Below are positions 42,915-53,064 of a DNA stretch of 60,204 nucleotides, one piece after another. The notes under the pieces were generated by a model. It searched no databases. It was not told where the DNA came from and saw nothing but the letters and a program-made list of their open reading frames with translations. A program made the translations under genes and the position numbers. Numbering within the stretch: the first letter of the stretch is position 1; every line of letters starts with the position of its first letter. Source of the DNA: Candidatus Peribacteria bacterium RIFCSPHIGHO2_01_FULL_55_13 (lineage in GTDB: Bacteria; Patescibacteriota; Gracilibacteria; Peribacterales; Peribacteraceae); contig MFXS01000040.1 in the NCBI GenBank assembly GCA_001788925.1, positions 5,511 to 65,714 on the forward strand, written 5' to 3'.

Positions 42915-42962
42915 AATCTCATGATTATAGCATAAAATGGCCCTTTTTAGGAGATGGTTTAA

Positions 42963-43058
42963 TGATGACGATTCAGACGATTCAGAAGATTCAAAGGATT
43001 CAAAAGAGTTGTCCTCTGAATCTTTTCAATCCTTTAAATCTTTTCGATATTCCGCCGC
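42963..43058 (+). repeat. GATTCAGAAGATTCAAAGG near-repeat hairpin upstream of tmk
   Basis: The left part repeats GATTCAGA/GATTCAAAG words. The right part (CTCTGAATCTTTTCAATCCTTTAAATCTTTTC) is their imperfect complement, so a long interrupted stem can form just before the tmk promoter box. Confidence 0.7.
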
Positions 43059-43072
43059 AAACATCTCCCCGC

Positions 43073-43084
43073 TATCCTCCTGCC
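43073..43084 (+). promoter_or_regulatory. Leaderless-type -10 box for tmk
   Basis: TATCCT (43073-43078), six bases, then ATG at 43085. Confidence 0.5.
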
Positions 43085-43660
43085 ATGCCATTAATTGTCC
43101 TCGAAGGCCCCGACGGCGCCGGCACCACCAAGCACAGCAAGCTCCTTGCGGAACGGCTTTCCAGGGAAGGCCACGACGTTGTTCTCACGGCTGAGCCTAC
43201 GGACGGGCCGATCGGTTTGCAGATCCGCTCGATGCTCAAGGGAGACCATCTTCCTGATGCGGCAACCGTGCAGCTTCTCTTCTGCGCCGACCGCGCCGAC
43301 CACGTTGCGCGCGTCATAGCGCCCGCGCTCGCAGCAGGAAAGACGGTGATTACCGACCGTTACGCGCTTTCGACGATTGTCTACGGAGCGGCGCAGGGCT
43401 TGGATCGTGATTGGCTGCAATCGATCAATGATGCGTTCCCGAAACCCGATGTGATATTCCTGCTGCTGCCTCCGTACGAAGTCTGCGCCGAGCGTGTGGG
43501 AAGACGCGCGACCAAGGACCAGTTCGAAGTGGATGCGTTCCAGAGGAAGGTGTATGCGGAATATGAAAAGGCGCGGTCGAAGGGAATGATTATGGTGGAT
43601 ACGTCGGGAGATATGGAAGAAGTTTCCGAAGGAATCTGGAAACAAAGCAAAAATCGATGA
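43085..43660 (+). CDS. tmk: Thymidylate kinase
   Basis: The 191-residue protein has PLIVLEGPDGAGTTKHSKLL, the DR motif in TDRYALSTIVYG and a lid-like RRATKDQFE. It phosphorylates dTMP to dTDP. The P-loop is unusual: the canonical GK[ST] lysine position reads Thr (GAGTTK), with a lysine one step later. The frame is open upstream to 42962 through the near-repeat, but homology begins at 43085 and a -10 box lies six bases before it. It ends one base before the convergent 212-residue gene. Confidence 0.93.
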   Translation: MPLIVLEGPDGAGTTKHSKLLAERLSREGHDVVLTAEPTDGPIGLQIRSMLKGDHLPDAATVQLLFCADRADHVARVIAPALAAGKTVITDRYALSTIVYGAAQGLDRDWLQSINDAFPKPDVIFLLLPPYEVCAERVGRRATKDQFEVDAFQRKVYAEYEKARSKGMIMVDTSGDMEEVSEGIWKQSKNR

Positions 43661-44299
43661 TCAGCTCAGAGCACCCTTAATATGAAGGCGGATCTCGTCG
43701 CTTCCTCCCGTAATATCAGAATCACGAGCGTCTTCTTTCGGCTTCCAATTGAGGATTTCTTTGATATCAGGCGGCATCAGCTGATGCCTGCGCATCACCT
43801 GGAACCACGCCGGAAGCTCCTCATCGGGAGGGGCGCAATCTTCAAGGATAGCATGTAAAGCAGCAACATCTTTTCCAGCAGAATTTTGCGCCAATCTTTC
43901 TTGTGCGAATTCAATGCCAAGTGTTCCGATCCGATCAGTGCGTGTCTCGTACTGGATCCCAAGACGCTCTGATTCGCTGATCAATCTCTCAATAAATTTT
44001 ACAGGGTCGCACTTTGCCTCTGCCTGCCACCGCTCTACAAACAGGAAAAGCTCTTCACGCCCGGTATCCGAGTGCACAAGGGATGCAAGCGGCGCCTCCG
44101 GTAAAAGAACGTGCCTCGGGACATCATATCCCACTTTAGGAGAATCGGACGACCGCTCAAAGAATCCAAGCGCACCGCCGACTGCGACAAACCTTCGAAC
44201 CTGTTCCGAGGACTCTTGAAGGCATCTCACATCGCTTGCAGACATCCTTGTCTCAAGCATTGTGAGGCGTTCAGCCGACGATGACAGGGTTTCTTTCAT
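43661..44299 (-). CDS. Hypothetical protein, 212 aa, third gene of the giant-protein operon
   Basis: Soluble, mainly helical, acidic protein. Segments include SASDVRCLQESSEQVRRFVA, EELFLFVERWQAEAKCDPVK and PAWFQVMRRHQLMPPDIKEI. No family is recognised. Its ATG overlaps the stop of the 2512-residue gene by four bases, so the two are translationally coupled and probably work together. Confidence 0.65.
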   Translation of the reverse strand: MKETLSSSAERLTMLETRMSASDVRCLQESSEQVRRFVAVGGALGFFERSSDSPKVGYDVPRHVLLPEAPLASLVHSDTGREELFLFVERWQAEAKCDPVKFIERLISESERLGIQYETRTDRIGTLGIEFAQERLAQNSAGKDVAALHAILEDCAPPDEELPAWFQVMRRHQLMPPDIKEILNWKPKEDARDSDITGGSDEIRLHIKGALS

Positions 44300-47200
44300 G
44301 CTGCTGCGCGACGGGAAGGTGTTCTCGCTGCCGGGGACACAGGGGCATCGCTTCCGGCGCTTCTATATATTCTATCACAGAACTCGGCCCATTTCTTGGC
44401 GATTTCGGCTGCGGGTCGGTCTTGCTGCTGCATGGCTTCCGTCTCCCGAAGCATCTGCAAATGCGCAAGTTTCGCAGGCACATACGACCCGTCGGACTGC
44501 TCGATGACGTAGTTGGTCGGCAATTCCGTGATGAGGGAACGTACGGCATCCTTCGCATGCGCCGTGTAGTTCACCGCATCCGTAATCTCATGTTCCGTCC
44601 CCTGCAGGGTAAGCGGCTCTCCTTTCATAATCTTATCGAGATTCTGCCTGGAAAAATCGCGGATCGCGTTAATGCGTAGGTTGGTTTCGACGACATTCGC
44701 CACCTTCTCGTACTGGTCATCTTGACCGACATCGAATTCCATAACGAGACCCTTGGACGTTCGAAGAGGAGGAAGAACACCGGGGTCCTGACCACTCCGG
44801 ACTTTGGCAACAAAATCTTTCAGCGCTGCTTCGTCATCTTTGCTTAAACCGCCGAAATCCTCTGCGGCTTTCAGGAGGGGTTCCACGCCTAATTTCGCAG
44901 CTTTTTCCGGACCCAGAACTTTTTCGATCAGTTGCTGACCGCGCGGGTCAATAGTATATTGCACATGCACCATTCCCTCGCTATCAACGCGAAGTTGCGG
45001 CGAGACACTCGCACACAGCATCGACACGTTCAGATTAATGGCAAAATCCCCTTGTACTTTGGATTCCCATTCCATGGTGCTATTCAAGGCATCGTGATAT
45101 GCCTTCGCCGTTTTCGAATCTATTTCTTCACGTGCTGCCATGCCGTCGATGCGCTGGATAAGAGAAGCCCGTAGATTCCCCACTTCCTTGAGCAACGGAT
45201 CCGCCTGGTCTATGCGGTCATCTTTTGACAATGCTGTGTCAGCTCGGATTGTATTGATTTGCTGGTAAATCTCACCGCACCGCGAGAGCGATGCAAAAAT
45301 TTCCGGATTATCTCTGAAAAGCGGCGATGTTTTGAGGTTATTGACGGTTGCCAGACAGTCCACCAGGGCAACGGCAGCCCCTACGCGCTCAAAAGGATTG
45401 ATCTTCTGATCCGTCAGACGGTCGATCTTGGATCTGCCATCAGCAAACTGCCCGTTTCCAACCGCATCCGAATGGTCGAGGACGGCGTTGCGAAGAGCTG
45501 TATAGCCGTCATTTCCGAATACCGACCGATAGAATTTCCTCCGGGATTCCACGTAGAGAGTGCTCTCCAGCGGATGATCCTTCGAGGCATCAAATACGCC
45601 TTCCTTCGGTGTACTACCGACAAGAGTGCGCTTCGTGTAGCCCATGTCATGGTCGAAGGTTGCCTGCAGTGCCAAAATTCTCTGTTCAGGCGTGAAACCC
45701 AGCTGATCAAACAGATTGACGAGCATTTGGGAATTGCCCCGAAGCACATGGAGTGCTCCGTGACTTGAGCCCACGAGGGTCATGTAATCCATCGTATCCT
45801 GGTGCGCAAGATTCACGGCGTTATCGGTCACCAGCTTCAACAGCTGCTCGGGTGTCGCCGTGAAATTCTGTGCAGCACGGAACTCTTGCAGATAGCGTGC
45901 AGAGAATTCCAGAATCACCCAGCGGTCGGCGTCCTTGAGGGTTTCGGCACCCGCTGTCGGAACGATGGCTTCCAAAATTCTTGCTGTTTCCGTGAGTATT
46001 GCCCGATCAATGGGATCGGGTAATGCGTCCACAATTTCTGCTGCATGTTTCGCGGTATAGGCGATTCCGTCACGCTCCTGACCGCACTTCGCAAGCGCAT
46101 CGATGGCGGTGGTCAGTCGCTTTCCGACATCAGAATCCTGCGGGAACATCTGTCCCCCTTCCGCGATATTGATCGGACGTACTGCCGGACGTCCTCCTTC
46201 AATCGTCGTATCCGGGCTCAGCAACCATTCCACATACTGATCAACATTGCGCGGATCGATAGATTTGTTCTCCGCATAAGTGCGCCATGCGGGATTCTTC
46301 TCCGCAGCGGCAGTATGTAATCTGCGTGCGAGCGCCTGCTTCACTTCCATATCCATGCCTGGAGCAAACTTTTGTAAATCACGGATGGATTTACCGATGT
46401 AATTCTGCCCCGTCCCCAAACCGATCCTGCCCGCATCGATATTTTCCAAAACCGAAAGAAACTTCGGAACAAGCTTCTGTGAAACAAAATCTTCGACGGA
46501 AGCGAATTCCTTCTTTCCTTCTTCTCGCAGTTCCTGATTTTCCTTGGCGCGGGCTTTCTCCAGCCCGCCTCGTCCCATCTGCTCGATGTATGTCGCAAGG
46601 GCCTGCGGATCACCACCTTTAACCTCCTTCGCAAGTTGCTCCACTTCATGAGACACCTTTTCCGCCAGAACTTGCGTCACTTCTACGCCTGCTCCAGAGC
46701 GATTTCGAGCGGCAAGAACGCCGAGAGAGCGGGCATCGGGAAGGAGCGCATCCGCGACCTTGTCATGAATGATCTTCATGGAATTGGGATTGCTCTGAAT
46801 CGACTTCAGCGTTCCAAGGAGATAACCGCATGCATCACGACGTACATCATCGGGTTGCATCTTTCTGTACGCGCCTTCAACGATAGAGATATCTGCATCA
46901 ATGTTGTTGAGGTGTCCGGAGAACCCTTCAATCGAAGCAGAAAATTCCAATGCTGCGCTTTGTATGTCTGCAGTCCGTGCTATTTCAACACTCGATCGAG
47001 ACTGAATAATCGCATCGAGACCCTGTACCCCCATCGTCCGCGCCGTTTCCACAGCGGCATCTTCTTCGCGCTGCACATTGACGATGGTGTCGCCGTAAAT
47101 CTTCGCCAAGGTAAAATCCCCTGTTGATTTTTGGTTCGTGACGATCAACGGATACTTTTTCGAAGTTTCTCCACCTGTCCAGCTGTAACTTCCGTCATCG

Positions 47201-50200
47201 TTCAGGGTAAATGTTTCCATGCGTCTCGCCGGTGTGATTCGATCGAGCGCGTATCCGACTGCAGCAATTTTTTTTGCTTCTTCAGGACTGATCCCCAGAA
47301 GCTCACCGCCGCGCTCCGCGATCTTTGCACGCAGCCCGTCGGGGTCTCCTCCTTCTTTTGTATCGATGAGAAGAATAGGCCGCAACTCCGCGGGAATCTG
47401 GTCTTTCAGCACGAAGGACTGCACCATGGAGATCGGGTATCCGGGATGGTGCGCGGCAAAGAGCATGGCAAATCCCTGGGCTTGTTCTGCCGTCATCCCT
47501 GCTTCCTGCAATCTCCGTGCCGTCGGGACAACGCTTCCGGAGCCATGGAGAATCACTTTCCGGATGAGATAGTTCTTCTGGTTATCGGGCTGAGAAACAA
47601 ATTCCAGTGCTTGCTCCGCAAGTCGGGCGGCTGCAGAGTCCGTCATGTTCGGATCGGAGGCCAATGCATTTTCCTTAAACGCGGAAAGCAGCTGAGTGCG
47701 ATGCTCAGCATTACCAAGATCGAGTTCCGCATCACTGTATGCAAGATCGTGATGTTCCACGAAAGCATGGGCAATCACTCCTATTTCCGGCGAAAGTTCG
47801 CCGCTTTTTACGAGAGATTCGACAAGCGCATGATGGGAATCGAGGTGCAGATCCACTCCTTGCGGATAATCCTTCGGTCGTTCAACGGAAGATCCCACGG
47901 ATTCCAATGCAGCTACCACTGTTCTCGGAAGCGCAGGGGCTTCGAGAGCGGTAGTGGATGCACTGTCGGAAACATTGTCTATGAGGACATCGCTTTCTGG
48001 AGCCAGTGGCGGCTTTGGTGGCTGTCTGTTTACATTTCGCGATGCAGGATTGTTCTGAGGAGTGCCACGGGGTGACACCGGAGGTCTGGATAGTGTTGCG
48101 GCTCCGCAAATACCAGCTTCAATGAGCAGCCGCTGCTCGGCGGGATCGGTAATGCCCTTGCTCAGTTCCTCTGTTTTGGCGCGGAGCTCTGCCGAGGAAA
48201 GCTCGTCGATATTGCCGGGTAAATTATGAGCGTTAAGAATTGCTTCGCGTTCATTTTTTTCTAATGTTCTCAAAAGCAGTGTCTCTGCAATCTGAATGCG
48301 AGCATCCGAATCGACATTGTTTGTTTTCATGAATTCTTTTAGAGCATGCCTTGTTTGCTGTTCGCCTATCCCCTGAGCTGTAGCAGCGAAGAATGCCAAA
48401 GTTTTTGCTTGATCCATTGGTAGCTCAACTTCCTGCACATTCGTTGCATTCTCAGTAATCTCCGGCTCCATCTGCACCGTCTCCCACGTCACATTGCCGT
48501 CCGCTCCGGATACCGGATGCCGGATCGTAAGGACACCCTGCCCAAGGTCCGTAACAATCGCACCGTTCCCCTCCGCTTCGGCACGAATCGCTTGCGTACG
48601 TGCCGCGAGCGCTTCCGGGCTCCTGCCGCGGACATGATAATTGATCGTCGTCCTGCCGATTTTGACGTTCTTGGCAATTGCCAGCAGGACTCCCGTGAGT
48701 GTTCCGAGTCCCAGCTTCCCATCGACGGCATCTGCCGCGGCAAGGCTGACATCAAGCTGGTTCAAAAAAGTCTCCAGCACGTGCTCCTGTGCTTCATCAC
48801 CGAATTCTTCCCCGATTTCTTTCGGCAAAGACTTCAACGCGCGCGCAACGGCCTCTTTGAGATTCGCCGCTTTTCCCAAGGCCTCTTTGCTGCCATTGAG
48901 CTGGGATAGCCTTCGTACAACGGATTGCATTACATCGCTACGCGCCGCAAGCCGTTCGACGATTTTAGAGTTCTGGAGAAGCTTGCTCAGCTGTCCGCCG
49001 ACGACATTGCCGATGCCCATCGTGCCGAGCGTGACGATGAATGCCTGCGAAAATTCTTGTGCAAGAGGATTGAGGACATCACCGAATAATTCTCTGTCCC
49101 TGTAGGTTCCGGTCTTCTCGTCAATTTCTTTTTGTCCTTCGGCATATTTTCCGAAACGCGATCGCTCGGTGAACGTGGCTTCACCGGATCGCACACGACT
49201 GTCGAGGTATTTGTGTCCTGCATGTACCGCTTCTTTGCCGAGTTCCGCTCCAGCTACGGTTCCCAAGGCCGTCGCTCCGGCACTCGTCAAAAAGAACGTG
49301 CTTGCCGAAACGGCGATCAGCGGAGTTGCTCCGCCCATCGTCAATACCACCGCTGCGGCCAGGAGGCACGCCACCGTGATGGAAGCGACGATGACCGGAA
49401 GTTCGTTCATACAGAAATTCGCCCATGTATCCGCGGAAAATCTGGATTCGTCCGTGATCGTCTTGAAAAGATCTATCGTCCCTGCATCGTTTAGCATCGC
49501 CGTAAATCCGTCGAGTGCTTTGAGCTGCTCATCGATCTTCTGTTCCAGTCCTCCGAGTGCAACGCCGTTCACGCCCTTCAGAGCGCGCAGTGCGACTTTG
49601 GCTTCCTCCACATCCCGCTTGAGTCGCGGGTCTTGCAGCATCTCCAGCGTCGGCCTCGCTTCCTCGCGGGCAAACTTCACGAAGGAATCGCGCGCGGATC
49701 CGATCTGACCCGCTTCAAGGAATTTCTGCAAATGTCCCACCGTCTGCTGGATCGTGGAGGCGGAACGCTTCACGCCGAGGATGGCAGGGTTCCGATCGAG
49801 CACGCGCTCGATGTCGCGTGTCTTCTCTTCCTGCTCTTTCTCAATCTCTGCAACGGGCTTTCTCACTTCCGTGCTCTCTTCTTTTGGTGGAGAAACAGAT
49901 ACATCGGTTTCCTTTTTCGGCAGATCGCGAGTGACAAGGCTGTCTCCATCGATCTTCGCGTACGCGAGATCTTCTTTAGAGACGATGTCCGTTTGCAACA
50001 CGCGCTGATAGAGCCGCGACCCCCTGCCATACTGCTCGCTGTCGGGGGCGCGAAGAACAATCGGGCGGGGAATGCGCTTGAGAACGAGCATCTGGCCCTC
50101 TGGAGGCTCGGCATTCACAAAATCAATCGCATGTCTGTCTACGGTAACGCCTTCGACGGAAAGTCCTGACTGCGTTTTGATCGTATAAAGCCCATTGGGA

Positions 50201-51834
50201 TACGACTTGTTCTCCGCTGTGCGCAGGGGCAACTTCGGCTGATATCTTTCCAAGTGAAATCCTTTTTGATTCTGTATCTGGGCTTCGATCATTGCGCGGT
50301 TCTCGCTGTTGCCGAGATCCACGGGCGTTACGCCATCATCCCGGACGATATTTCCCTTTCCATCCACGAAACCGATATCCGTATGGGCAATGATACATTC
50401 GCTAGGGGGACAACGCAGAACGGACTGCATGCCGCGTCCAACACCCTGCGTACCGATCACCATGGAAGTCACGGGACGCAGTAAGACGGGCTCCCTGTCT
50501 CCAGGAATAGATTCTAAAACCTTCTGTGCCTGTGGAGTCGCGATGACCGTCATGGAGCGTCCATTGGAATAGGTAAGGATTGTCTTTGATCCGATACCAA
50601 GCGCTCCGCTCACATCCTTCCCGTCGAAATAAATACCTTTCTTGTCGAACGGTTCAAATGTTCCTGCCCGGAACGTCTGCTTTGCGCGCACCTGATCAAG
50701 AACGTCCGCTGCCGTGGATTCGGAAAGTTTCTGCTCAATCGCTTTCTTCAAAGTCTGAGGTGACCGCGGGTCATCGAAGAGCATTGCTTCCTCGATGGGG
50801 GATAATTTCTTCTGATCGCGCAGCCGCATCGCAGACTGCATTGCACGCGTAGCATCCGTGCCCCTGAGGCCTGTGCCGTACTTCTCCAGAAGCTGCGTCA
50901 TACGCCGGTCCGATTCCTCTGTGCGGCCTGCAAGCCGGGCACCATCCGCAGCCCCCACGGCAAGCGTGATATCGAGGGCCGCAGCGATGCCGTCGATCAC
51001 CTGCTGCTGCTCCGAAAGTGTTTGTATCTCCGGACGTACGCGTTTGATCTCGTCGACGAGCGCCTGAATCCCTTTGTCGGCAACCGAGAATCTGTCGGGA
51101 AGAACATTGTCGATTGCTCCGGAAGCGATTCCCACTGTCTGCATGTTCGCACTGAGACGTAGCAGATCCTTGAGGTTATCCCTCCATCCGTACTGCAGTC
51201 CTTTCGTTTCATCCACAATGCGCTGCATGAGCGTGATCACGTTGCCGTTCAGCGCATCGATCTGCGTTTGCACCCGCCCGCTCCTGTCTCTGACGGATTC
51301 CCGTACGGCGCGGATCCCGCCTTCTTCGCCGTACTGCGCAATCGCCTCATCCAGCATTGCGTTCTGTGCTTCCGAGGGAAGTCCCAGCGTGGTAAGCAAC
51401 GTGCGTGCATGCTCCGCCATGCCCACCGACGTCTGTTCCTTCTGCTCAGGATGCACGGTGGAAAATTTCTCCAGCAACTGTGCAACATCTGCATCAAAGG
51501 CATTCACTGTTTCATGCATTGTCTTTGGATCGACCGTCGCCAACTTCTCCAGAAGGCCTGTCTCCGCTTCCGTACACGCACGCTCCAGCTCCTGCCAGTG
51601 CGGAGACTGCGCATTCTTCCCGATCTCCACCGTGCGCTTGGCATCAGCTATCCGTCCCTGCATGTCATTCACCTTGCCGATGTAGATCGCCGTGAGCTTC
51701 TCACGGTCAGCATCGCTTTGCGGAGCGCCGTGATCGATTTTCCCATCGGCATTTCCGTCATGGGCATCGAGCTCGCGCTGCGCGGCATCAATCGCGCGCT
51801 GCGGATCGGCCTGCTCTGGAATATCAGGACTCAT
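44296..51834 (-). CDS. Giant 2512-residue protein with HD phosphohydrolase-type centre and hydrophobic hairpin
   Basis: Order seen: a helical charged region (1-370), a beta-rich domain (about 380-650), and an acidic linker (about 660-690). A hydrophobic hairpin follows at about 830-890 (LPVIVASITVACLLAAAVVL, then TPLIAVSASTFFLTSAGATA), then helices and a Pro-rich linker near 1270-1300. A degenerate HD-like region has H1334/H1335 and H1362-D1363, a beta patch lies near 1550, and long helices follow. A complete HD constellation comes next: H2025, H2029, H2062-D2063 (FDHDMGYTKR), H2087 and H2121 with D2123. The C-terminus is helical and ends in Ala/Arg. It could hydrolyse a nucleotide or phosphoester at the membrane. 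No signal peptide is present. Start and stop overlap both neighbours by four bases. Confidence 0.85.
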   Translation of the reverse strand: MSPDIPEQADPQRAIDAAQRELDAHDGNADGKIDHGAPQSDADREKLTAIYIGKVNDMQGRIADAKRTVEIGKNAQSPHWQELERACTEAETGLLEKLATVDPKTMHETVNAFDADVAQLLEKFSTVHPEQKEQTSVGMAEHARTLLTTLGLPSEAQNAMLDEAIAQYGEEGGIRAVRESVRDRSGRVQTQIDALNGNVITLMQRIVDETKGLQYGWRDNLKDLLRLSANMQTVGIASGAIDNVLPDRFSVADKGIQALVDEIKRVRPEIQTLSEQQQVIDGIAAALDITLAVGAADGARLAGRTEESDRRMTQLLEKYGTGLRGTDATRAMQSAMRLRDQKKLSPIEEAMLFDDPRSPQTLKKAIEQKLSESTAADVLDQVRAKQTFRAGTFEPFDKKGIYFDGKDVSGALGIGSKTILTYSNGRSMTVIATPQAQKVLESIPGDREPVLLRPVTSMVIGTQGVGRGMQSVLRCPPSECIIAHTDIGFVDGKGNIVRDDGVTPVDLGNSENRAMIEAQIQNQKGFHLERYQPKLPLRTAENKSYPNGLYTIKTQSGLSVEGVTVDRHAIDFVNAEPPEGQMLVLKRIPRPIVLRAPDSEQYGRGSRLYQRVLQTDIVSKEDLAYAKIDGDSLVTRDLPKKETDVSVSPPKEESTEVRKPVAEIEKEQEEKTRDIERVLDRNPAILGVKRSASTIQQTVGHLQKFLEAGQIGSARDSFVKFAREEARPTLEMLQDPRLKRDVEEAKVALRALKGVNGVALGGLEQKIDEQLKALDGFTAMLNDAGTIDLFKTITDESRFSADTWANFCMNELPVIVASITVACLLAAAVVLTMGGATPLIAVSASTFFLTSAGATALGTVAGAELGKEAVHAGHKYLDSRVRSGEATFTERSRFGKYAEGQKEIDEKTGTYRDRELFGDVLNPLAQEFSQAFIVTLGTMGIGNVVGGQLSKLLQNSKIVERLAARSDVMQSVVRRLSQLNGSKEALGKAANLKEAVARALKSLPKEIGEEFGDEAQEHVLETFLNQLDVSLAAADAVDGKLGLGTLTGVLLAIAKNVKIGRTTINYHVRGRSPEALAARTQAIRAEAEGNGAIVTDLGQGVLTIRHPVSGADGNVTWETVQMEPEITENATNVQEVELPMDQAKTLAFFAATAQGIGEQQTRHALKEFMKTNNVDSDARIQIAETLLLRTLEKNEREAILNAHNLPGNIDELSSAELRAKTEELSKGITDPAEQRLLIEAGICGAATLSRPPVSPRGTPQNNPASRNVNRQPPKPPLAPESDVLIDNVSDSASTTALEAPALPRTVVAALESVGSSVERPKDYPQGVDLHLDSHHALVESLVKSGELSPEIGVIAHAFVEHHDLAYSDAELDLGNAEHRTQLLSAFKENALASDPNMTDSAAARLAEQALEFVSQPDNQKNYLIRKVILHGSGSVVPTARRLQEAGMTAEQAQGFAMLFAAHHPGYPISMVQSFVLKDQIPAELRPILLIDTKEGGDPDGLRAKIAERGGELLGISPEEAKKIAAVGYALDRITPARRMETFTLNDDGSYSWTGGETSKKYPLIVTNQKSTGDFTLAKIYGDTIVNVQREEDAAVETARTMGVQGLDAIIQSRSSVEIARTADIQSAALEFSASIEGFSGHLNNIDADISIVEGAYRKMQPDDVRRDACGYLLGTLKSIQSNPNSMKIIHDKVADALLPDARSLGVLAARNRSGAGVEVTQVLAEKVSHEVEQLAKEVKGGDPQALATYIEQMGRGGLEKARAKENQELREEGKKEFASVEDFVSQKLVPKFLSVLENIDAGRIGLGTGQNYIGKSIRDLQKFAPGMDMEVKQALARRLHTAAAEKNPAWRTYAENKSIDPRNVDQYVEWLLSPDTTIEGGRPAVRPINIAEGGQMFPQDSDVGKRLTTAIDALAKCGQERDGIAYTAKHAAEIVDALPDPIDRAILTETARILEAIVPTAGAETLKDADRWVILEFSARYLQEFRAAQNFTATPEQLLKLVTDNAVNLAHQDTMDYMTLVGSSHGALHVLRGNSQMLVNLFDQLGFTPEQRILALQATFDHDMGYTKRTLVGSTPKEGVFDASKDHPLESTLYVESRRKFYRSVFGNDGYTALRNAVLDHSDAVGNGQFADGRSKIDRLTDQKINPFERVGAAVALVDCLATVNNLKTSPLFRDNPEIFASLSRCGEIYQQINTIRADTALSKDDRIDQADPLLKEVGNLRASLIQRIDGMAAREEIDSKTAKAYHDALNSTMEWESKVQGDFAINLNVSMLCASVSPQLRVDSEGMVHVQYTIDPRGQQLIEKVLGPEKAAKLGVEPLLKAAEDFGGLSKDDEAALKDFVAKVRSGQDPGVLPPLRTSKGLVMEFDVGQDDQYEKVANVVETNLRINAIRDFSRQNLDKIMKGEPLTLQGTEHEITDAVNYTAHAKDAVRSLITELPTNYVIEQSDGSYVPAKLAHLQMLRETEAMQQQDRPAAEIAKKWAEFCDRIYRSAGSDAPVSPAARTPSRRAAA

Positions 51835-52163
51835 GCGGCGGCATCAAAGAAGTGATCGAGTTGATTCGCTTCGTCGTTGTCCGTCGCACCCTCGCTTGCG
51901 CGCCGCAGAGAACGTGCCGCATCACGCAGATACCCCTCCAGATTTTTCAGCCATTCCGTATTCCCGTCGGCAATCGCATGACCAACCACTCTCTCCATGG
52001 CAGCGGCGATGCGCGTGGGCTCTTGGAGGAGAAGATTTCCAAGCGCCGTCAGTCCTTCCGGAGTCAGATCCGCGAGCAGTGCTCTCAGGGACTTTTTGCG
52101 CTCAGGACTGAGCAGCAGAGACTCTTCGATGCCCTTTTTGACGGTATCGATGTTTGTGTGCAT
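51831..52163 (-). CDS. Small helical protein, 110 aa, first gene of the giant-protein operon
   Basis: Mostly helical: IDTVKKGIEESLLLSPERKK, LRALLADLTPEGLTALGNLL, then an acidic end NQLDHFFDAAA. No family is recognised. The LTPEGLTALGNLL stretch looks like a packing or oligomerisation helix. ATG 52163 is chosen because TATACT lies ten bases before it. Its stop overlaps the start of the giant gene by four bases. Confidence 0.68.
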   Translation of the reverse strand: MHTNIDTVKKGIEESLLLSPERKKSLRALLADLTPEGLTALGNLLLQEPTRIAAAMERVVGHAIADGNTEWLKNLEGYLRDAARSLRRASEGATDNDEANQLDHFFDAAA

Positions 52164-52212: not shown

Positions 52213-53064
52213 ATGTCCGCCCTCCTCCTCTCCGGCCGTGACGCAGCAGCGAAGATTCTTGGCGAATTGAAGCCAAAAATCACGAAAATCGACCCGAAGC
52301 TTGTGGTGGTGCAGGTGGGCGATGACCCGGGAAGCGCCAGTTACATCAAGCAGAAGATCAAAAGCTGCGGTGAAGTGGGGATGCGAAGCGAGCACCGGCA
52401 TCTGAAGGCTGATACCACGCTTTCGGAGCTTTTGAAGACCGTGGCCGAACTCAATAGCGACACTGATGTCACCGGGTTCATCGTCCAACTTCCTCTCCCT
52501 GACCATCTCCAAGATCATGTCCCCGAAGTGATCCGCGCGATCGACCCGAAAAAAGATGTCGACGGCTTCGGCGCCTATAACCTCGGTAAAGTATTTCTCA
52601 GTAAAGAATTTGAGCACCTTCCACCGGCGACTCCCGCAGGCATCATCATGCTTCTCGAACACTACAAGATTTCTGTCGCGGGCAAGCACGCGGTCATCGT
52701 GGGCAGGAGCAACATCGTGGGAAAACCCCTCTCAGTGATGCTCCTCAACCGCGATGCGACGGTGACCGTGTGCCACAGCAAAACAAAAGATCTTCCCGCA
52801 ATCACGAAGCAGGCCGATATCCTGATCGCCGCCGTCGGCAAACCAAAGATGATCACGGCAGACATGGTAAAGAAAGGCGCGGTCGTGATTGATGTCGGCA
52901 CGAGCCGCGTCGACGGAAAACTGACGGGCGATGTGGACTTCGATGCCGTCTCAACAATCGCCTCGGCCATCACGCCTGTTCCGGGAGGTGTCGGTCCGAT
53001 GACGGTCTGCTCGCTTATCAGAAATTGTGTGCGGGCCAAGGAGCGACAGACGGAGAAAAGTTAA
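52213..53064 (+). CDS. folD: Bifunctional methylenetetrahydrofolate dehydrogenase / cyclohydrolase
   Basis: The 283-residue protein has GDDPGSASYIKQKIKSCGEVG with the catalytic Tyr-xxx-Lys, VQLPLPDHL, PKKDVDGFGAYNLGK, PPATPAGI, and the NADP loop VIVGRSNIVGKPLSVMLL. The C-terminal PVPGGVGPMTVCSLIRN is also present. It interconverts 5,10-methylene-, methenyl- and 10-formyl-THF, feeding purine synthesis. purF and purD follow. Confidence 0.97.
   Translation: MSALLLSGRDAAAKILGELKPKITKIDPKLVVVQVGDDPGSASYIKQKIKSCGEVGMRSEHRHLKADTTLSELLKTVAELNSDTDVTGFIVQLPLPDHLQDHVPEVIRAIDPKKDVDGFGAYNLGKVFLSKEFEHLPPATPAGIIMLLEHYKISVAGKHAVIVGRSNIVGKPLSVMLLNRDATVTVCHSKTKDLPAITKQADILIAAVGKPKMITADMVKKGAVVIDVGTSRVDGKLTGDVDFDAVSTIASAITPVPGGVGPMTVCSLIRNCVRAKERQTEKS

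Follow-up and report, generated by a model that had tools for sequence, protein, structure and literature searches.

A modular arrangement, in which a small adaptor is matched to a protein with a swappable enzyme end, very probably underlies the three-gene locus described here. The locus encodes (i) a small helical protein of 110 residues (the N partner), (ii) a protein of 2512 residues (the giant) and (iii) a protein of 212 residues (the C partner), and it resides in a stretch of 60,204 nucleotides that was analysed as a whole (the window) and derives from a 1.17-Mb genome. The named relatives with the same module are Candidatus Peribacteria/Peregrinibacteria; Peregrinibacteria are tiny bacteria thought to dwell on hosts. 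Across this class, a gene for a small helical protein followed by a gene for a very large swappable-enzyme protein forms a gene-pair family that is apparently undescribed. Pairing, modularity, swapping, island behaviour and an HD-type enzyme are all well supported by sequence comparison. The locus may in addition be one allele of an adaptor plus polymorphic-effector system, equipped with two HD phosphohydrolases and delivered to a partner cell, a reading that falls a little short of an even chance.

The three ORFs are all on the minus strand, and the overlaps of four bases that a sequence-only reading of this DNA had described between neighbouring genes are confirmed (52163..51831, 51834..44296 and 44299..43661). 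The genes and their flanks are:

42962..43660, plus strand: tmk, one flank of the island, which adjoins folD where the trio is missing (G003, G004)
43661..44299, minus strand: C partner, 212 aa, present only with the C-terminal HD module and overlapping the giant by four bases in all six trios
44296..51834, minus strand: giant, 2512 aa, from the ORF and its relatives
51831..52163, minus strand: N partner, 110 aa, from the ORF, its homologues and a structure model
52213..53064, plus strand: folD, the other flank of the island, from flank comparison with relatives

The conserved start of tmk is probably internal to the ORF listed. An alternative GTG start at 52283 would lengthen the N partner to 150 aa; the more likely start is the ATG at 52163, since the homologues begin there. 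None of the three proteins had been assigned to a nameable family, and Pfam, NCBIfam and PHROGs indeed hold no significant match to any of them. Weak matches to GrpE, CGLAU_01105 and phrog_13588 were dismissed, their scores being at chance level.

In both the window and G002, which represent two species of one genus, the trio is flanked by tmk and folD. Where the trio is missing, tmk and folD are 25 bp apart in two genomes of the same genus (G003 and G004) and about 50-80 bp apart in G006 and G011, while G001 has a different ORF at this site. Flank identity between the window and G002 is 76-90%, compared to 34% for the N partner, 29% for the scaffold of the giant, 46% for the HD module and 53% for the C partner. 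The tmk-folD pattern reads as that of an accessory, fast-diverging and recombining island.

The giant is shared piecewise, not whole, by its relatives, as seen in a search of 59 genomes (including the window's own) followed by pairwise comparison of the giants. A 2108-aa protein from a species of the same genus (G001p) has the scaffold at 59% identity to the window giant (29-33% for G002 and G021) and a different end, composed of a metallophosphoesterase-like stretch (weak Pfam match) and two cNMP-binding domains (PF00027, E 1.7e-28). The parts of the giant, all on the minus strand, are:

51430..51834, minus strand: N-module (residues 1-135), common to giants with a similar N partner and replaced jointly with the N partner in G001p
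48457..51315, minus strand: scaffold including the hydrophobic hairpin (residues 174-1126), common to giants with different C-terminal enzymes
49165..49410, minus strand: central hydrophobic hairpin (residues about 809-890), from a hydropathy scan
48058..48384, minus strand: small helical stretch (residues 1151-1259), with matches in G017, G020, G021, G025 and G044
46765..47982, minus strand: middle module (residues 1285-1690) with a full HD-type residue set and HHxGYP, from alignment
44320..46743, minus strand: C-terminal HD module (residues 1698-2505), with ligands invariant in six homologues, from a model and fold search

The hydropathy scan places the hairpin, formerly put near 830-890, at about residues 809-890, and detects no N-terminal hydrophobic segment, in line with the signal peptide having been reported missing. 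In another genus (G005), the middle module (about 1285-1690) is a protein of its own. The helical stretch of about 100 residues at 48058-48384, roughly RxxIAExLLxxxLxxxQxxAILxAHN, is also observed in dissimilar large proteins of four loci (L025, L026, L027 and L028), and an HExxH-like region is similar among L026, L027 and the paired protein in L074.

The C-terminal module likely adopts an HD-superfamily fold, with motif and predicted fold taken together. The metal-site pattern proposed from the sequence (H2025, H2062-D2063, H2087 and H2121) is found intact at exactly these residues, and the wider ligand set (with H2029, D2123 and D2159) is fully conserved across six diverged homologues. A model of residues 1880-2330, built from a six-row alignment (pLDDT 78, pTM 0.78), was compared by VIA-align and returned 50 rows of HD-superfamily enzymes; the best are cyclic-nucleotide phosphodiesterases (Z 10.6, rmsd 5.0 over 236 residues), followed by exopolyphosphatases/GppA (Z 9.4-10.1, rmsd 3.4-4.0 over about 150-165 residues), with YhaM also listed, although for helical folds a Z near 10 does not settle the matter. 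Foldseek alone gave no significant match with this model. The resemblance to the phosphodiesterases is by fold only, with no Pfam match to PDEase_I in the giant, nor do any HD or PDEase Pfam models match it. Neither the HD module nor the middle module had a credible match when searched by sequence against the PDB, and no viral relatives of the HD module were found.

The middle module had been taken for a degenerate HD-like segment near residue 1362, and this view is revised as the full residue set is kept relative to its one homologue: H1334-H1335, H1362-D1363, H1430, H1462-H1463 followed by G-Y-P at 1465-1467, and D1531. Measured against the HD-GYP signature (HD...H...HHExxDGxGYP), the ligands and HHxGYP are present, while the spacing differs, there is no Pfam match and the comparison involves a single homologue.

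The HD domain is one among many interchangeable C-terminal enzymes. The recognised ends of the large proteins include: (i) HD, in the window, G002, G011, G021, G126 and L039, (ii) cNMP-binding, combined with a metallophosphoesterase-like stretch in G001p or with a zeta-toxin-like P-loop in G137 (weak), (iii) other Pfam-type ends, namely calpain (two, one of them below the curated cut-off), PP2C and GGDEF, and (iv) caspase-like (two) and HExxH-like ends, which were called by eye from sequence motifs. In the hydropathy scan, nearly all giants of at least 1200 aa show a hydrophobic segment in mid-protein, at 0.31-0.56 of the chain, and lack one at the N-terminus. A constant N-terminal region joined to interchangeable C-terminal domains, a trait of polymorphic toxins, is thus present.

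Giants of this size could alternatively be cell-envelope proteins for host contact, with secondary enzyme ends. Few bacteria are as rich in huge proteins as Peregrinibacteria, according to a survey that gave these proteins no functional category (PMC11573180), the giant membrane proteins of the related Vampirococcus are proposed to serve in attachment (PMC8080830), and a few partner proteins weakly match peptidoglycan-binding or transglycosylase-like models. By contrast, the window giant lacks a signal peptide and any Pfam adhesin or anchor domain, and HD, GGDEF, PP2C and cNMP-binding domains have cytosolic substrates; a surface role is held to be very unlikely.

The N partner is predicted to consist of a helical domain (residues 1-92), a disordered linker and a short C-terminal helix (99-108; model pLDDT 76). 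The model by itself resembles generic three-helix bundles (Z up to 6.3), a likeness that was set aside. A profile built from four trio-type members finds the family in 35 of 192 genomes and 33 of 134 genera of the class Peregrinibacteria; beyond this class it is essentially absent, with one genome among those sampled from other classes. This profile also matches designed helical proteins in the PDB, where composition can inflate scores; thus, weak family members are given little weight. A broader profile reaches near-universal paralog groups in each genome, for which homology is less certain at such weak scores. These 'YW' paralogs (mostly 125-160 aa) were rejected as pair members, with 0 of 16 having an ORF of at least 400 aa within 40 bp.

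Many N partners, though not all, are paired with a large gene. In the clearest pairs outside the trio, the spacing to the next ORF is -4 to +16 bp, and that ORF encodes 520 to 2542 aa. For 51 of the 61 short members in all fetched loci, a same-strand ORF starts between -60 and +40 bp, and these downstream ORFs reach at least 400 aa in 30 of the 51 cases and at least 1000 aa in 18; 31 of the 61 are without a close downstream ORF of at least 400 aa. For comparison, an ORF of at least 1000 aa follows 3 of 72 other small genes in these loci (Fisher p 1e-5). Outside the seed genomes, 9 of 23 members precede an ORF of this size (p 1e-4). An LLxxL-like motif occurs in the C-terminal tail of 27 of the 61 members, compared to 5.6 expected from shuffled tails; the motif is loose and also found in the near-universal paralogs.

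Other arrangements are noted among the matches. In three genomes (L086, L091 and L152), the gene after the N partner encodes a strongly basic protein (1160-1300 aa, pI 9.3-10), and beyond it lie large ORFs of ~660-740 aa, apparently a separate, longer operon type. In the window's own genome, a weak N-partner-like ORF (E 1.6e-4) is followed by ORFs of 399 and 1283 aa with hydrophobic stretches (L178 4344-10142, G000:C19), possibly a second system. The same genome encodes, outside the window, two near-universal paralog-like proteins with the helical motif of the N partner: near carB- and holA-like genes lies one of about 135 aa (G000:C40:77057-77365, plus strand), and close to a recG-like gene lies one of about 219 aa whose start is rich in proline (G000:C17:24491-24694, minus strand). 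Both might be core components, with the N partners mimicking them or competing with them.

The N partner follows the N-module of the giant rather than the enzyme end. In a comparison of 34 systems, N-partner similarity has a median z of 11.3 where the giant N-termini are similar and 4.2 otherwise, and it correlates with similarity of the first 150 residues of the giants (Spearman 0.20, p 1e-6, for pairs that are not independent) and hardly with that of the last 350 (Spearman 0.03). Window and G137 illustrate the pattern with z scores of 39 for the N partner, 54 for the giant N-terminus and 0.1 for the C-terminus, while the two calpain-ended and two caspase-like-ended giants, which differ in their N-termini, are less similar in their N partners. 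G001 provides the cleanest natural experiment: its G001p has a scaffold 59% identical to that of the window giant, has a replaced N-terminus and is accompanied by an N partner of only 21% identity, whereas another pair of the same genome is 52% identical to the window in the N-terminus and 40% in the N partner. A second N-terminal type is observed within the first 45 residues, where a basic residue is followed by a short beta-like stretch (KRFVFVG, SKLVFFEG, RLAYFAG). This start is seen in 12 of the 34 systems (L087, L089, L101, L103, L107, L151, L154, L155, L157, L162, L172 and L173), compared to 1.7 in shuffles, for a pattern picked after inspection, and is a possible targeting signature.

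The C partner is tied to the other end of the giant. It is directly 3' of all full-length HD modules (6 of 6), with the same four-base overlap each time, and a class-wide search finds it in exactly four sampled genomes, those with the full HD module; no C partner was found with giants of other ends. Both partners do co-occur with giants elsewhere; however, the trio is not the unit it was taken to be, as the N partner goes with the N-termini of many different large proteins and the C partner with the HD module alone. The C partner may be a regulator or an immunity protein of the HD enzyme. The 3' position of an immunity gene is occupied by the C partner after the HD module (6 of 6), while G001p and most other giants are without such a gene.

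An intragenomic or anti-phage defence role would make the giant a sensor-effector, with an enzyme end switched on by infection and the N partner as inhibitor or activator. The accessory island fits such a role, caspase-like, calpain, HD, zeta-like and cNMP-binding types are known in defence, and two relatives have cNMP-binding parts that match models of Pycsar effectors. Yet these matches are confined to the cNMP-binding domain, PADLOC finds nothing significant for the trio, no known defence genes cluster in the loci read, and the N partner tracks the N-module, not the enzyme. Defence is held to be unlikely, somewhat less so than a surface role.

Delivery of the giant into another cell, as read from these arrangements, is nearly as probable as the contrary. 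The N partner would bind the N-module of the nascent giant, and its C-terminal LLxxL-like helix would dock the giant to a common export machinery, with a T4SS-like locus as candidate route. The hydrophobic hairpin might then aid the C-terminal part in crossing the membrane, and in the partner cell the HD domains would act as hydrolases of a phosphate ester, perhaps a nucleotide second messenger, while the 212-aa protein would restrain or regulate the HD enzyme in the producer. The window's own genome does have T4SS-like genes, a TraG/VirB4-like ATPase (PF19044, E 9.2e-28) and T4SS_pilin on the same contig, and VirB4 is present in 18 of 20 Patescibacteria classes (PMC12102498). T4SS_pilin (PF18895) has 8 to 19 matches per genome in 20 of 20 relatives, far above the need of one secretion system. 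No known secretion signal is detected in the giant. Extended to the whole class, the proposal is of contact-dependent delivery in which small adaptors with a common C-terminal docking motif feed giant enzyme-tipped effectors (HD, GGDEF, PP2C, calpain, caspase-like and zeta-kinase-like) into hosts; this wider form is tentative and leans towards the doubtful.

Several observations weigh against the delivery reading: the HD, GGDEF, cNMP-binding and PP2C set equally suits intracellular signalling, and many giants are without a third gene able to give immunity. The short N-partner relatives that lack a large downstream ORF, the looseness of the tail motif and the moderate strength of the HD fold assignment count against it too. 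The main rival, a substantial if rather doubtful possibility, is a membrane-anchored intracellular signalling hub. The hairpin would anchor the giant in the cytoplasmic membrane, the N-terminal part would sense or scaffold, the N partner would be a regulatory or assembly subunit, and the enzyme ends would act in the producer, where the 212-aa protein regulates HD. A hub of this type fits the predominance of signalling-type enzymes among the recognised ends, the single hydrophobic hairpin, which keeps both termini on one side and suits an anchor, the near-universal N-partner paralogs, which suggest a housekeeping interaction, and the missing of an obvious immunity gene for most giants. Patchy distribution, near-empty sites and fast divergence are, however, unusual in core signalling, and calpain-, caspase- and zeta-kinase-like ends are better suited to conflict systems.

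Delivered or not, the recurrent two-gene logic of an adaptor family and swappable ends offers a handle on many huge genes and predicts binding partners and substrates. How the presumed host-dependent Peregrinibacteria act on their hosts would become testable with single purified modules. The suggestion of an undescribed protein system stands in that neither a family nor a literature match was found, with no description of the pair of small partner and giant found in the open-access literature searched; it gives way in that the unit is wider than the trio, with a class-wide adaptor family and many large proteins.

Several known systems share features with the locus. HD-superfamily phosphohydrolases (class I cyclic-nucleotide phosphodiesterases, PPX/GppA, YhaM and HD-GYP) resemble the C-terminal module in metal-ligand pattern and predicted fold, and HD-GYP shares HHxGYP with the middle module; the window HD differs in having ~10% identity in structural alignments and in sitting within a giant. 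The giants of Vampirococcus and other Patescibacteria (PMC8080830, PMC11573180) are likewise very large proteins from small genomes of presumed host dependence, but those described have interaction domains such as WD40 or PKD and inferred surface roles, with no adaptor gene or swappable enzyme end described in the available parts of these accounts. The T6SS prePAAR effectors and their Eag chaperones (PMC7773334) similarly combine a cognate small chaperone gene, a transmembrane stretch in the effector and a variable C-terminal toxin, whereas the giant has no PAAR/prePAAR match, its hydrophobic part is mid-protein, and the N partner is unrelated in sequence to known families. Polymorphic toxin systems (PMC3482391) share the constant N-terminal part, the interchangeable C-terminal enzymes and rapid divergence; unlike these, the present system has no general immunity gene, lacks known trafficking and pre-toxin domains, includes several signalling-enzyme ends and has a partner that tracks the N-terminus.

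The LXG effectors of type VIIb secretion, for which the Lap proteins (Lap1/Lap2) act as adaptors (PMC9600955), differ from the window system in having an LXG domain and two partners rather than one; the giants here are several times longer and have a central hydrophobic hairpin. No LXG domain is matched by Pfam in the giant, and WXG100 (PF06013) is found in 0 of 20 relatives (B. subtilis control positive); thus, Lap/LXG is an analogy and not a case of membership. The analogy is that small helical partners are encoded with large polymorphic proteins, the partner is specific to a conserved N-terminal domain and has a short conserved motif, and the C-terminal enzyme is variable.
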